From the NCBI GenBank assembly GCA_016125275.1, contig WGMB01000003.1, forward strand, positions 992,001 to 1,056,000: a DNA stretch of 64,000 bases. Direction: 5' to 3'. Positions 19,295-51,445 of the stretch are shown here, piece by piece; position 1 is the stretch's first letter, and every line of letters starts with the position of its first letter. The position numbers and the translations under genes are program-made. The DNA is from Acidobacteriota bacterium. Its GTDB lineage: Bacteria; Acidobacteriota; Terriglobia; Bryobacterales; UBA6623. The notes beneath the pieces were generated by a model. The model saw only the letters and a program-made list of their open reading frames with translations, was not told the origin of the DNA and did not search any database.

Positions 19295-20175
19295 ATGCAA
19301 AAGCTGGTGATAGCCCTGTTGCTCCTGTCCGCGCCCGCCTGGGCCCAGCTCGAAGGCTTCGGCAAGGAAGAGCTGATCAAGTACACGGCCAAGAATCCGT
19401 TCGACCGCTTCGAGGACGGCCGGCCGAAGGTCCCCGACAAGTACTTGGAGATGCTCAAGGGCTCCTCGTCGGAGATGCTGTGGGGACCGCTGCGCGGCGC
19501 CGGCTACGAGCACCAGTGGGTGGGCGGCTGGCAGATCGTGCACCCGGAGAAGAAGCTCGTCGGGCGGGCCTTTACGGCCGTGTTCATGCCCGTGCGGCCG
19601 GACCTGGACGAGGTGATCGAGGCTGACGCCAAGGCCAAGGGGCTGGGCAAGAATGACAACCAGCGCGTGATCGACGCGTTGCAGCCCGGCGACGTGCTGG
19701 TGGTGGATCTGTTCGGAAAGATCGAAGGCGGCACCTTCGCCGGCGACAATCTTTCCACGGCCATCATTACGGCCACCGGCAACGGGTATGTGATCGACGG
19801 CGGCGTGCGCGACCTCGACGGCATCTACCCGCAGAACATGCCGATCTACGTGCGTGGCTTCGATGTCTCGGCCATCAAGGACGTGATGCTGATGGGCATG
19901 AACGTCCCGATCCGCATTGGCGGCACGACCGTGATGCCCGGCGACGTGGTGGTGGGCGACCGCGAAGGACTGAGCTTCATTCCGCCGCACGTGGTGGAGG
20001 AGGCGGCCAAGCGCTCGAAGATTCTCGAGCTGCATGACATCTGGACCAAGGGCAAGCTCGCCACAGGCAAATGGAAGGCCAGCGAGCTCTACCCCAGCCC
20101 GGCGACCCCAAGCTCAAGCAGGAGTACGAGGAGTGGCTGGCGAAGGAGAAGAAGAAGTACGGCATCGACGACTGA
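19295..20175 (+). CDS. exported RraA-family protein, frameshifted near the 3' end
   Basis: The product begins with a Sec signal peptide (LVIALLLLSAPAWAQ) and carries an RraA/HMG-aldolase fold: GDVLVVDLFGK, YVIDGGVRDLDGI with the Arg-Asp pair used by HMG/CHA aldolases, and MPGDVVVGDREGL. RraA proteins are normally cytoplasmic, so export is unusual. The frame breaks in the C run at 20098-20100: adding one C gives a C-terminus SPGDPKLKQEYEEWL ending with TGA at 20173-20175 (293 residues), whereas the sequence as given reads on in a low-complexity Ser/Arg frame to 20209. A homopolymer sequencing error is the simplest explanation; a true frameshift is possible. Paralogue at 21625. Confidence 0.75.
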
Positions 20176-20209
20176 TGTCCCTGGGTCGAGTCATCTTCGC
20201 CTGAAATGA

Positions 20210-21620
20210 CAAGACTGCTGCGATTGAGCCTGGCCCGCGGATTCTACGCACGCTAAGGAGGACTACAGTGACAAGAAAATGCTTCGTAATCAGCCCGATT
20301 GGACCGGACGGGAGCGAAACGCGAAAAAATGCGGACAAACTCCTGGAGTTGATACTTAAGCCGGCACTCGAGAAGTACGAATTCGAAGTTGTCAGGGTTG
20401 ACCACATTGCAAAATCTGGCTCAATTACAGCCGACATAATCGAGCTCGTGCAAACCGCAGAATTGTGCGTTGCCGATGTGACGGGCGGCAATCCAAACGT
20501 ATTTTATGAACTTGGACGGCGAAACGAGACAGGAAAACCCTGCCTGCAGCTTGCCCGAAAAGACGAGGTGTCGATACCATTCGACGTTTCCGTAATCCGA
20601 ACAATACCGTACGATTACAGTTCGGCGGAGGCTGCCCTAGACTGCGTCAAATCGATCAGGAAATTCGTTGACGAGTTCGAAAAAAATGGCTATGGCGAAT
20701 CGGGGAGCGGCGTCTCACTAGCGACTTTGTCGGCAACCGTAGACCGGATCGAGCGCAAGCTTGGCGCGCTGCAGGTCGCAGGGGGAGGAGGTTCTGGGCT
20801 GAGGCCCCAAATAGACGCAGCATTCGGCACCGACGAGTGGACTGCACAGTTGCAGTCCGCAGCCAATCCGAGGAATGCCTTCATGAAGGCGATCGCTGGC
20901 GGTGACCTCGAAAGTGCCTCGGGTCTTCTACCAAGATTGGCAAAACTCTATTCAGGAAATCCAGACTTGGTGGTCAGTTACGCAGGCATCCTTGCAGGTT
21001 TTGGAGACGAATCAGCCAAGGACTTGGCTCTCCGCCTCCTTGAGCAACACGCTTCAGGACTGCCCTTGGACACACTTAAGAATGCCATCGGATCGATCAT
21101 TCACTTCTATTCTGTGACTGATCGCGAGAATGAAGCGATACCGCTAGTGGAGCCCTTCATCGATAAGGCACTTCAACGCCCTGATCTCGACACTGACGAC
21201 AAGGCATTTTTCAATAATCAACTCGGGAAGCTATTTTATGGAGCCAAGGATTACAAGGCAGCCATAATTCGACAAAAAGCAGCGGTAGATCTCGCACCAG
21301 ATGAACCGGCCTATCTATATAACCTCTCTCTTGATTATCAGGCCGATGAACAGACAGCCAAAGCGGAAAAGATGGTCGATGAATATATCTCGCTGGGCGC
21401 GACGAGCGCCGACCAACTTTCCCACGCAGTTGAGATATATCGAGAGGTAGGGCGAATTGAAGATGCCGAGCGCGCCCTGGATAACCTGCGATCCATGGAT
21501 CCCGTCAAGGCCATTTTGATTAACTCGATGCGAGGTCTCAAATAGACCCAGGCAAGCAAGCCACACAGATACAAGACTTAGATTGATCCCAACCGCGAAG
21601 ATATCACAGGTTGGCACTTA
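20210..21620. other. AT-rich segment between two RraA paralogues
   Basis: From just after the first RraA gene to just before the second, the sequence is visibly richer in A/T, with codons such as AAA, AAT, ATA and TTT that are rare in neighbouring genes. It holds one gene. No inverted-repeat ends, target duplication or recombinase gene were seen, so the route of entry is unknown. Confidence 0.7.
20268..21545 (+). CDS. deoxyribosyltransferase/TIR-like domain protein with TPR-like repeats
   Basis: The 425-residue product has an N-terminal domain of about 130 residues of the nucleoside 2-deoxyribosyltransferase/TIR-like superfamily: KCFVISPIGPDGSETRKNAD, VVRVDHIAKSGSITADI, then CVADVTGGNPNVFYELGRRN, whose Glu is the candidate catalytic residue. 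Such domains recur in predicted bacterial conflict systems as nucleotide- or NAD-cleaving or sensing modules. A helical stretch at about 150-170 leads to TPR-like repeats (FFNNQLGKLFYGAKDYKAAI, YLYNLSLDYQADEQTAKAEK). GTG 20268 has a perfect AAGGAGG at 20255-20261. Codon use differs sharply from its neighbours, indicating transfer. Function not established. Confidence 0.75.
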   Translation: MTRKCFVISPIGPDGSETRKNADKLLELILKPALEKYEFEVVRVDHIAKSGSITADIIELVQTAELCVADVTGGNPNVFYELGRRNETGKPCLQLARKDEVSIPFDVSVIRTIPYDYSSAEAALDCVKSIRKFVDEFEKNGYGESGSGVSLATLSATVDRIERKLGALQVAGGGGSGLRPQIDAAFGTDEWTAQLQSAANPRNAFMKAIAGGDLESASGLLPRLAKLYSGNPDLVVSYAGILAGFGDESAKDLALRLLEQHASGLPLDTLKNAIGSIIHFYSVTDRENEAIPLVEPFIDKALQRPDLDTDDKAFFNNQLGKLFYGAKDYKAAIIRQKAAVDLAPDEPAYLYNLSLDYQADEQTAKAEKMVDEYISLGATSADQLSHAVEIYREVGRIEDAERALDNLRSMDPVKAILINSMRGLK

Positions 21621-21624
21621 TCTG

Positions 21625-22386
21625 ATGTTCAGTATTGCTCAACGATGCTGCCCTCTCGGTTTCGCCTTGCTGCTGACCGCTGCCCAAGCGTCGGCCCAGC
21701 TCGCGGGCTTCGGTCCCGACCAGCTTCGCAAGTACACGCCGCTCAACCCCTATGAGCGCCTGGCGGACGGACGCCCCGCGATTCCGGAGTATTGGCTGGA
21801 GAGGCTGCGCGAAGCCAGCACGACCCTCGCCCAGGAAGTGCTGGCGGAGCACGGCTACCCGAACCAGTTCGAGGGCGGCTGGACGAATCACGAGGCCGGA
21901 AAGAAGCTCGTTGGACGGGCGTTTACGGCGCAGTTTCTGCCCGATCGCCCGGACGTGATGGAGATCGCCGAGGCGGATTCGAAGGCGCGCGGCGAGGACG
22001 CCCATCCCACCAAGCGCGTGATCGACCTGCTGAGCCCCGGCGACGTGCTCGTGGCCGACATCATGGGCCGGGTGGAGAAAGGGCAGTTCGGCGGCGACAA
22101 CCTGATTCTGGGCCTGTTTCTGCAAACGGGCAGAGGGTTCGTGATCAACGGCTCCTTCCGCGACCTGGACGGGGTGGCCGAGCACGGCATGCCCGTGTTC
22201 GTGCGCGGCTACCACCCGGGCGTGCGTGAGGACGCGATGCTGAGCGGGGTGAACACGCCGATTCGCATCGGCCGCGTCACGGTGATGCCGGGCGACGCCG
22301 TGCTGGGCGACCGCACGGGCGTCGTGTTCATCCCGCCACATCTGGTGGAAGCGGTGGCGCGCGCGGCGTTCGAACGGCGGCAGTGA
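21625..22386 (+). CDS. exported RraA-family protein, second copy
   Basis: 253 residues with a signal peptide (PLGFALLLTAAQASAQ). It is clearly paralogous to the product at 19295: both start their mature region with QLxGFG and KYTxxNPxxRxxDGRP, share GGW near residue 80 and KKLVGRAFTA, and end the fold with VMPGDAVLGDRTGVVFIPPH. The GSFRDLDGV stretch keeps the Arg-Asp pair of RraA-type aldolases. It lacks the C-terminal tail of the first copy. ATG 21625 starts the signal peptide; an upstream in-frame TTG at 21583 lies in AT-rich sequence and is less likely. Confidence 0.8.
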   Translation: MFSIAQRCCPLGFALLLTAAQASAQLAGFGPDQLRKYTPLNPYERLADGRPAIPEYWLERLREASTTLAQEVLAEHGYPNQFEGGWTNHEAGKKLVGRAFTAQFLPDRPDVMEIAEADSKARGEDAHPTKRVIDLLSPGDVLVADIMGRVEKGQFGGDNLILGLFLQTGRGFVINGSFRDLDGVAEHGMPVFVRGYHPGVREDAMLSGVNTPIRIGRVTVMPGDAVLGDRTGVVFIPPHLVEAVARAAFERRQ

Positions 22387-35636: not shown

Positions 35637-36902
35637 TCAGATCCGCTGTTTGAGGGCTCGATCCTCAACGGCCTTTCGGAAAGATGCAGCTACAAGCGGC
35701 GAAAGTGCTCTGAGATCGTCGGGCTTGGCGATGGCTACGCGAAATGGAGCCCAAGGTGATGGGTTCATCACCTCGACGCCCGGTGGCAGAAGCGCGCGTC
35801 CAACAATCGAGTCGAGATTGAATCCGACCCACGGCGTTTTCGCTTCCACAACCAATCTCATTATCCACCAGGAGGGCTTGTTAAAGTATATTCCGAAGTA
35901 TCCGGTCGTATCCTTGTAAGCAATCTCAATCGGAACATCCCGACCAAGCGAGGGATCGTAGATCGACTCCCGAGCAATCGATGATAGATCGAATTGACTC
36001 TTGACGATGGCAAAGCATTCGAGCTCATTCTGGGTAGTAACGATCCCTGCTCGTTCCTCTCGCGACGTCATATTGTCTGAGAGTGACGGATCATCAACAT
36101 CAACGACATCAACAATAGAGGATATACTTGTTGAGTTATCATCCTCTGATGCCTTGGCCACAACTTCATCATCCAGAGCCGCAACACTTCGCCGCACGAT
36201 GTCTCGTAAGACGATCGTAAGAGCGTTCTTGACGATAGGAGACATCCGTTCGACCACGCCATACGTAACCCGGCGATCGTACATGGCGTCAGCGGCCAGC
36301 ACCCAGCGCACAAACCCTTCCCCGGGGTCCCTGTCACGAAGATCGAGCTCTTGCCTCAAGAACCTGACCATCTTAGATCGATAGTTCAACTCCGTGGCAA
36401 ACTCCCGAATCGCCTCGTGCGAAAAAACAGACTTCTGAAACTTAGATAAAATATCAAGTCCCGGATCGAATGAGTCAAGGCGGGCAACGTAAAATGGAGT
36501 CTGATCTAAAATATTGATCTCTTCACTATCCGTGAAAAATCGATACTCGATACCATTCGTAAGCACGGCCAGCGACACAGACGGAGTTGAGTTAAAATAT
36601 CTGGCGAGTTGACCCTCATGCCCCTGAAGATCCTGACTAAGGTCTTTCACCTCAAAGTAGATTCTAGGCTGATCGTTCAGAATGACAGCCAGATCAACTT
36701 TTTCCTTTTGACCAAATTTCTTAGTCTGAAAATCCGCATCATACTCGGGACACACTTCGGATGGATTCCAGATGTCGTACCCCAACGCGCTCACCATCGG
36801 CAACACCAATGATTGCTTGGTCGCCTGTTCGCCTTTGCCTCGGACGGCAGAAACGCGTCCAAGAATCTCATCAATCACAGACTTTAGTTTTTCTGTAGCC
36901 AT
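35637..36902 (-). CDS. HsdR_N nuclease-like domain protein (COG4748-like)
   Basis: 421 residues. The N-terminal 190 residues resemble the endonuclease domain of type I restriction HsdR subunits: a PD-(D/E)xK core with Asp in KVDLAVILND and the ExK in IYFEVKD, followed by QLARY, the QxxxY motif of that family. The remaining region is unrecognised, and there is no helicase motor and no hsdM/hsdS nearby. A role in defence or DNA metabolism is inference. Codon use is AT-rich and unlike both neighbours, suggesting transfer. ATG 36902 has GAGG upstream; the in-frame ATG at 36947 has no ribosome site. Confidence 0.75.
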   Translation of the reverse strand: MATEKLKSVIDEILGRVSAVRGKGEQATKQSLVLPMVSALGYDIWNPSEVCPEYDADFQTKKFGQKEKVDLAVILNDQPRIYFEVKDLSQDLQGHEGQLARYFNSTPSVSLAVLTNGIEYRFFTDSEEINILDQTPFYVARLDSFDPGLDILSKFQKSVFSHEAIREFATELNYRSKMVRFLRQELDLRDRDPGEGFVRWVLAADAMYDRRVTYGVVERMSPIVKNALTIVLRDIVRRSVAALDDEVVAKASEDDNSTSISSIVDVVDVDDPSLSDNMTSREERAGIVTTQNELECFAIVKSQFDLSSIARESIYDPSLGRDVPIEIAYKDTTGYFGIYFNKPSWWIMRLVVEAKTPWVGFNLDSIVGRALLPPGVEVMNPSPWAPFRVAIAKPDDLRALSPLVAASFRKAVEDRALKQRI

Positions 36903-37154
36903 CGGGAACGGCACCTCAAAGCGAGAAAGTGGTGGGTGTGTCGCCATTATCCATGGGGCTACGGATCACGTCAAGGTCGCAGGACGGCGACGGTCTCCCC
37001 GTGCACAGCCTGCAGGCCAACTAGGCGAGGGGCAGAGCTGCGGGTGTGAGGAGAAGAGGAAGGAATCCAAGGCAGCCTCGCTGTTCGTTCTTCATGGCTC
37101 CAGCGTTGGATCGATCCGCGTACTCCTCTCCAGAGGCGTCGCATCCCACCTCGG

Positions 37155-51067: not shown

Positions 51068-51445
51068 TCAGGAGCTGGCGCAAACGATGTCCGTCTGCGA
51101 GAAGTCATTGCCCTTGAACAGGAGCGGCTCACCCGTAACCTTCGCCAGAGCGTAAGAGAAGCAGTCGCCGTAGTTGAGCTTGGCCGGATGGTTGCCTTTG
51201 CCATACATCAGGTAGGCCGCCCTGGCGATCTTGGCCTGACCAAACGTTACCGGCTCCACCACAATCCCCATGAGCTCGATCAGTTGGTCAAGCCTGGAAT
51301 CCATGCCGCCCATCAGTTGATCCAAGCGGATCGAGGCTTCTACGTAACCAGCGCTTGACATGCGTGCGATGGGGGCCGCTGCAAGCTCCTCGCCATCGGA
51401 TTCCGCAAACACAACGGCGAGCAGCGCGGAAGGATCCACGATCAC
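51068..51445 (-). CDS. vapC: VapC-type PIN-domain ribonuclease toxin
   Basis: 125-residue PIN-domain protein. The acidic metal-binding residues are in place: Asp4 in MIVDPSALLAVVF, a Glu in SAGYVEASIRL, and Asp residues in LNYGDCFSYALAK and LFKGNDF. VapC toxins cleave RNA, often initiator tRNA or rRNA, when the antitoxin is degraded. The start is GTG at 51445, overlapping the vapB stop by 3 bp, so expression is coupled to the antitoxin. Confidence 0.92.
   Translation of the reverse strand: MIVDPSALLAVVFAESDGEELAAAPIARMSSAGYVEASIRLDQLMGGMDSRLDQLIELMGIVVEPVTFGQAKIARAAYLMYGKGNHPAKLNYGDCFSYALAKVTGEPLLFKGNDFSQTDIVCASS

Follow-up and report, generated by a model that had tools for sequence, protein, structure and literature searches.

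The window, a stretch of 64,000 nucleotides from an Acidobacteriota genome, contains a lone gene of deviant composition between two tandem RraA-like paralogues. The features of the locus are as follows (residue numbers refer to the 425-aa product):

19295..20209 (+): upstream RraA-like paralogue (PF03737), with the frame shifted near its 3' end
20255..20261 (+): ribosome-binding site AAGGAGG, read directly, with a 6-nt spacer to the GTG
20268..21545 (+): lone gene, 425 aa, GTG start; the open frame was read directly and is intact, and full-length homologues exist
20268..20687 (+): predicted TIR/DRHyd (NDT/DNPH1-like) Rossmannoid domain, residues 1-140 (AlphaFold2 model, structural matches, profile)
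20283..20285 (+): F6, invariant, placed by alignment start offsets at the site of DNPH1 Y24, NDT Y7 and MilB F17
20508..20510 (+): E81, predicted catalytic Glu in NPNVFYELG, invariant and aligned with GYELG of RCL/DNPH1
20718..20783 (+): predicted linker helix, residues 151-172, followed by the low-confidence residues 173-187 (AlphaFold2 model)
20829..21536 (+): predicted TPR superhelix, residues 188-423, 14 helices forming 7 repeats, candidate sensor (AlphaFold2 model, structural matches)
21625..22386 (+): downstream RraA-like paralogue (PF03737)

Composition and context of the lone gene

The lone gene has a GC content of 0.518 and a GC3 of 0.545, versus GC3 values of 0.90 (RraA1) and 0.85 (RraA2) in the flanking genes and a mean of 0.83 (sd 0.10) across the open reading frames of the window; the sole other real-looking gene with a GC3 as low is located at 35637-36947 (see below). 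An earlier note, made from the sequence, had described a single gene with differing codon use and its own perfect ribosome site between two tandem RraA paralogues, and these values agree with that description. Both flanking genes match the RraA-like family PF03737 (E-value about 1e-24) and their mutual identity is 52%. Two genomes of the same family (G005 and G009) have both rraA orthologues head to tail, overlapping by GTGA, with zero genes between them. In a blastn comparison the two rraA halves were separated by 120 bp in a relative versus about 1.55 kb in the window, which corresponds to about 1.43 kb of extra DNA. Judged against this empty site, the foreign segment spans approximately 20176-21636; the proposed placement between the paralogues is thus retained, while the extent given earlier (20210-21620) has to be corrected slightly. 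The note had also suggested comparing the RraA locus of related genomes for an empty site; the site is empty in both G005 and G009, in agreement with horizontal insertion at the rraA locus. The 60 nearest genomes yielded no full-length homologue, and a sample of 396 genomes of the same phylum yielded one. The simplest interpretation is that the gene was inserted in this lineage; no tRNA, target-site repeat or adjoining integrase was seen at the site.

The upstream rraA gene is itself altered: at 20090-20175 (+) a frameshift lies some 25 codons ahead of its conserved end, and the alternative frame, which stops at 20175, encodes the C-terminus that is intact in G005 and G009. This frameshift reflects either an error in the sequencing or genuine damage to the gene next to the insertion.

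Predicted structure and active site

Besides TPR-like repeats, the 425-aa protein contains the motifs CFVISPIG and NPNVFYELG. The N-terminal domain modelled alone with AlphaFold2 (pLDDT 92.9, pTM 0.87) revealed human DNPH1 as the top structural match of residues 1-140 (Z: 14.8, rmsd: 2.4, 125 aligned), followed by MilB (Z: 13.9) and the TIR domains of SPARTA (Z: 13.8), the bacterial STING SfSTING (Z: 13.7) and SARM1 (Z: 13.1), while Foldseek reported NDT, STING-TIR, DNPH1 and SPARTA as the top matches. We counted structural matches within 1 Z unit as tied, and therefore the fold hardly separates NDT-type from TIR-type domains. The structure prediction and fold search suggested in the note thus returned a related fold, in accordance with its assignment to the TIR/deoxyribosyltransferase group. 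On the sequence level the domain leans to the NDT branch: the comparison of the family profile with RCL (E-value 7e-5) placed E81 on the catalytic Glu, and PF05014 is matched by 19 of the 43 family members (best E-value 1.1e-6), the window protein itself not being among them. The PADLOC TIR effector model also matched (6e-10). Residues F6, N75, N77, Y80 and E81 are invariant across the 43 family members.

The position of F6 bears on the substrate. In the structural alignments residue 1, 2 or 3 of the model starts opposite residue 19, 20 or 21 of DNPH1, residue 2 or 3 opposite residue 9 or 10 of rat Rcl, residue 2 opposite residue 3 of Ct-NDT, and residue 1 opposite residue 12 of MilB. If the first strand is assumed to be ungapped, these start offsets (as opposed to a residue-by-residue superposition) place F6 on DNPH1 Y24, Rcl Y13, NDT Y7 and MilB F17. 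In DNPH1 and NDTs the Tyr makes a hydrogen bond to the catalytic Glu and ties the enzymes to 2'-deoxy substrates, whereas NADase TIRs exhibit Phe or Ala at this position (PMC11204291). The window family appears to carry an invariant Phe where the 2'-deoxy-specific enzymes have Tyr, which suggests that the substrate is likelier to be a ribonucleotide or NAD+ than a deoxynucleoside. Thus, the label "deoxyribosyltransferase/TIR-like" from the earlier note holds for the fold class and the catalytic Glu, but its first half probably names the wrong substrate class.

The full-length AlphaFold2 model (43-row alignment) obtained a mean pLDDT of 89.2 with a pTM of only 0.57, and therefore the arrangement of the domains is not readable from it. 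For the C-terminal part the structural matches included PilW (Z: 18.0) and the TPRs of OGT, LGN and PP5; several of these are protein- or peptide-binding superhelices. The TPR-like array noticed earlier thus corresponds to a predicted seven-repeat superhelix, for which the sensor role is a candidate one. Pairwise identity averages 0.52 in the N-terminal domain versus 0.23 in the TPR part, as expected for a constant effector combined with a diverging sensor; repeat arrays in general diverge fast.

Homologues and related systems

We found 13 full-length homologues (28-43% identity) across eight phyla, namely Chloroflexota, Myxococcota, Actinomycetota, Pseudomonadota, Planctomycetota, Bacillota, Verrucomicrobiota and the window's own phylum (one further genome). 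Among them are proteins from Dechloromonas (L091), Zoogloeaceae (L093) and Thiodiazotropha (L089), the sensors of which would be likelier to recognise phages of Pseudomonadota. The tree mixes the phyla and places the window protein together with a Chloroflexi sequence. Pairing it with the other protein of its own phylum is nonetheless not rejected (AU p 0.07), whereas a single clade of the pseudomonadotal members is (p 1.5e-4). The homologues are likewise solo genes amid unrelated, mostly housekeeping neighbours (including a RecN/SMC-like gene, an MgsA ATPase, a histidine-specific methyltransferase and an AMP-binding enzyme), which bears out the idea of a one-gene unit. Clustering and scanning of the neighbours revealed no conserved or defence family around the 13 full-length loci, the only recurrent families being transporter-like or otherwise ordinary ones; at one locus (L095) a TIR protein is encoded within about 2 kb. 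The PADLOC neighbour count at 1e-5 was left out as evidence, as generic models for kinases, phosphatases and ATPases make up most of it. A defence-island setting of the full-length homologues is therefore not supported.

The N-terminal domain is also carried by mobile elements. With a short C-terminal part it is common in temperate phages of Staphylococcus and Streptococcus (phrog_3634; E-value 7e-45, up to 46% identity), in proteins of about 220-237 aa that lack the TPR array of the window protein; these phage cousins sit against the direction of their neighbours or near repressor or integrase genes. Further cousins are encoded on plasmids. In Pseudomonas and Vibrio plasmids (L182, 2896-4542; L183, 5454-7206) the N-terminal domain is fused to TPR-S (PF20308) directly beside a TIR gene, which in the Pseudomonas plasmid is ThsB-type, and the pair looks like a two-gene signalling module. 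Another architecture, of 326-355 aa, is found in Lokiarchaeota, Chloroflexi and others (L131, 2195-3175; L134, L138, L146 and L128); the C-terminal domains of the two members tested (L131 and L128) gave no Pfam match.

The nearest described architecture is that of the plasmid proteins, i.e. the same N-terminal domain with TPR-S next to a TIR gene. The window protein shares with them a homologous N-terminal domain (hhalign 9e-18, with 36% identity over 119 columns) and the presence of a TPR array after it, but no homology beyond the N-terminal domain was reported. TPR-S is absent among its matches listed at E-values up to 1, whereas the plasmid cousins match it with 1e-23 to 6e-26. Moreover, the plasmid genes adjoin a TIR gene, while the window gene is flanked by RraA genes instead. 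Burroughs, Aravind and colleagues have reportedly linked proteins with DRHyd and TPR-S to the metazoan ASK signalosome.

DNPH1/RCL, the nucleoside 2-deoxyribosyltransferases and MilB have the fold and the catalytic Glu in common with the window protein, but DNPH1 and the NDTs differ in the Tyr at the 2'-deoxy gate (Phe in the window protein, as in MilB), and the window protein possesses the TPR fusion. TIR NADases (SPARTA TIR-APAZ, bacterial STING-TIR, SARM1) exhibit a similar fold, with Z scores of 13 to 14 that are close to those of DNPH1, and their combination of effector and sensor is alike, also in SpbK (the fold of which was not part of the comparison); the window protein is nearer to the NDT branch in sequence and its sensor domain differs. 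Swarozyc, described as a DUF4062 TIR-like NADase triggered by the phage portal (PMC13174449), likewise joins a TIR/NDT-like domain to a helical C-terminal part, but the latter forms helical stalks rather than a TPR superhelix. We did not assign the window protein to Swarozyc, as DUF4062 is absent among its matches listed at E-values up to 1. Membership in Thoeris, which pairs ThsA (SIR2-SLOG or TM-macro) with ThsB, was also rejected, as the immediate neighbours of the gene encode RraA, PadR, a permease-like protein and an M81-type protein. DSR2, SpbK and Swarozyc are, according to their descriptions, single-protein NADase defences triggered by a phage structural protein; judging from its anatomy the window protein would work like them, and we do not claim membership in any of these systems. 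We found no description of a TPR fusion of this kind in the open-access literature, and an earlier mention elsewhere is possible; the protein is of a generally known kind, with an architecture that we did not find described.

Proposed function and alternatives

We propose, with a probability of about one half, that the gene encodes a horizontally acquired two-part protein, in which a TIR/DRHyd-class N-glycosidase is joined by a helical linker to the seven-repeat TPR superhelix, and which would cleave NAD+ or a related ribonucleotide on a trigger and thereby halt the infected cell. The trigger, for which a phage protein or peptide is the likeliest candidate, would be bound by the TPR array. This contact would free the N-terminal domains or bring them together, and they would then cut the N-glycosidic bond of the nucleotide via E81, and the loss of NAD+ would stop the cell ahead of phage release, i.e. 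by abortive infection. The defence role, which the earlier note had put forward, is suggested by the domain class, the mobility of the gene and the carriage of the N-terminal domain by phages and plasmids, but not by an island context.

An alternative is that the N-terminal domain is a non-catalytic nucleotide receptor, which binds an ADP-ribose-type messenger produced by a TIR enzyme encoded elsewhere, with the TPR array relaying the signal. The plasmid fusions next to TIR genes and the presence of two ThsB_TIR matches in the host genome, both elsewhere than the lone gene, are in line with this possibility, and the TIR-DRHyd-SLOG class does include non-catalytic nucleotide sensors (PMC9503650). 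We nonetheless consider it unlikely, given the invariance of the catalytic Glu and the surrounding residues and the lack of an adjoining TIR gene, the one near L095 being the only case noticed among the full-length homologues. A catalytic alternative is an N-hydrolase of deoxynucleotides or deoxynucleosides, which would deplete or clean the nucleotide pool under TPR control. It would agree with DNPH1 and NDT as the best structural matches and with the profile match to RCL, but the apparent replacement of the deoxy-specific Tyr by an invariant Phe makes it rather improbable.

Much the same low probability applies to a regulatory or stress-signalling TPR protein that was acquired by transfer and has no anti-phage role, for instance one built on a plan analogous to that of ASK1. 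ASK1 likewise has an N-terminal domain followed by seven TPRs (PMC10972558), and a solo gene amid housekeeping neighbours would suit such a role; its absence among the top structural matches listed, as a homologue of the whole plan, excludes nothing. The window protein is, however, devoid of a kinase or other output domain, and the scattered distribution across phyla and the mobile elements carrying the N-terminal domain also argue against regulation. Finally, the un-ameliorated composition, together with a weak scan that found no sigma-70-like promoter on the strand of the gene, could indicate a recent acquisition without function in this host; this appears very improbable for an intact frame of 425 codons with a strong ribosome site and every invariant residue kept.

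Returning to the preferred reading of a triggered N-glycosidase, we further suggest, tentatively and with less confidence than for that reading as such, that it represents an undescribed one-gene anti-phage system, in which an NADase fused to a TPR superhelix recognises a phage protein directly and has spread solo across phyla outside defence islands. Such a distribution would explain why island-based discovery has missed it. If true, a self-contained sensor-effector NADase would be added to bacterial immunity, and such units could move by themselves and become lodged between metabolic genes. The N-terminal domain family also offers a testable hypothesis for the uncharacterised phrog_3634 gene, and the Phe/Tyr switch a simple prediction of NAD versus deoxynucleotide specificity.

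Other genes of the window

The second lone low-GC gene, at 35637-36947 (-), encodes a protein of 436 aa (GC 0.50, GC3 0.53) with an HSDR_N restriction-enzyme domain (PF04313, 1.8e-11), and is likely to be another transferred defence-type gene. At 51068-51445 (-) the window encodes a PIN-domain protein (PF01850, 8.8e-10; GC 0.59), which may be the toxin of a toxin-antitoxin pair.
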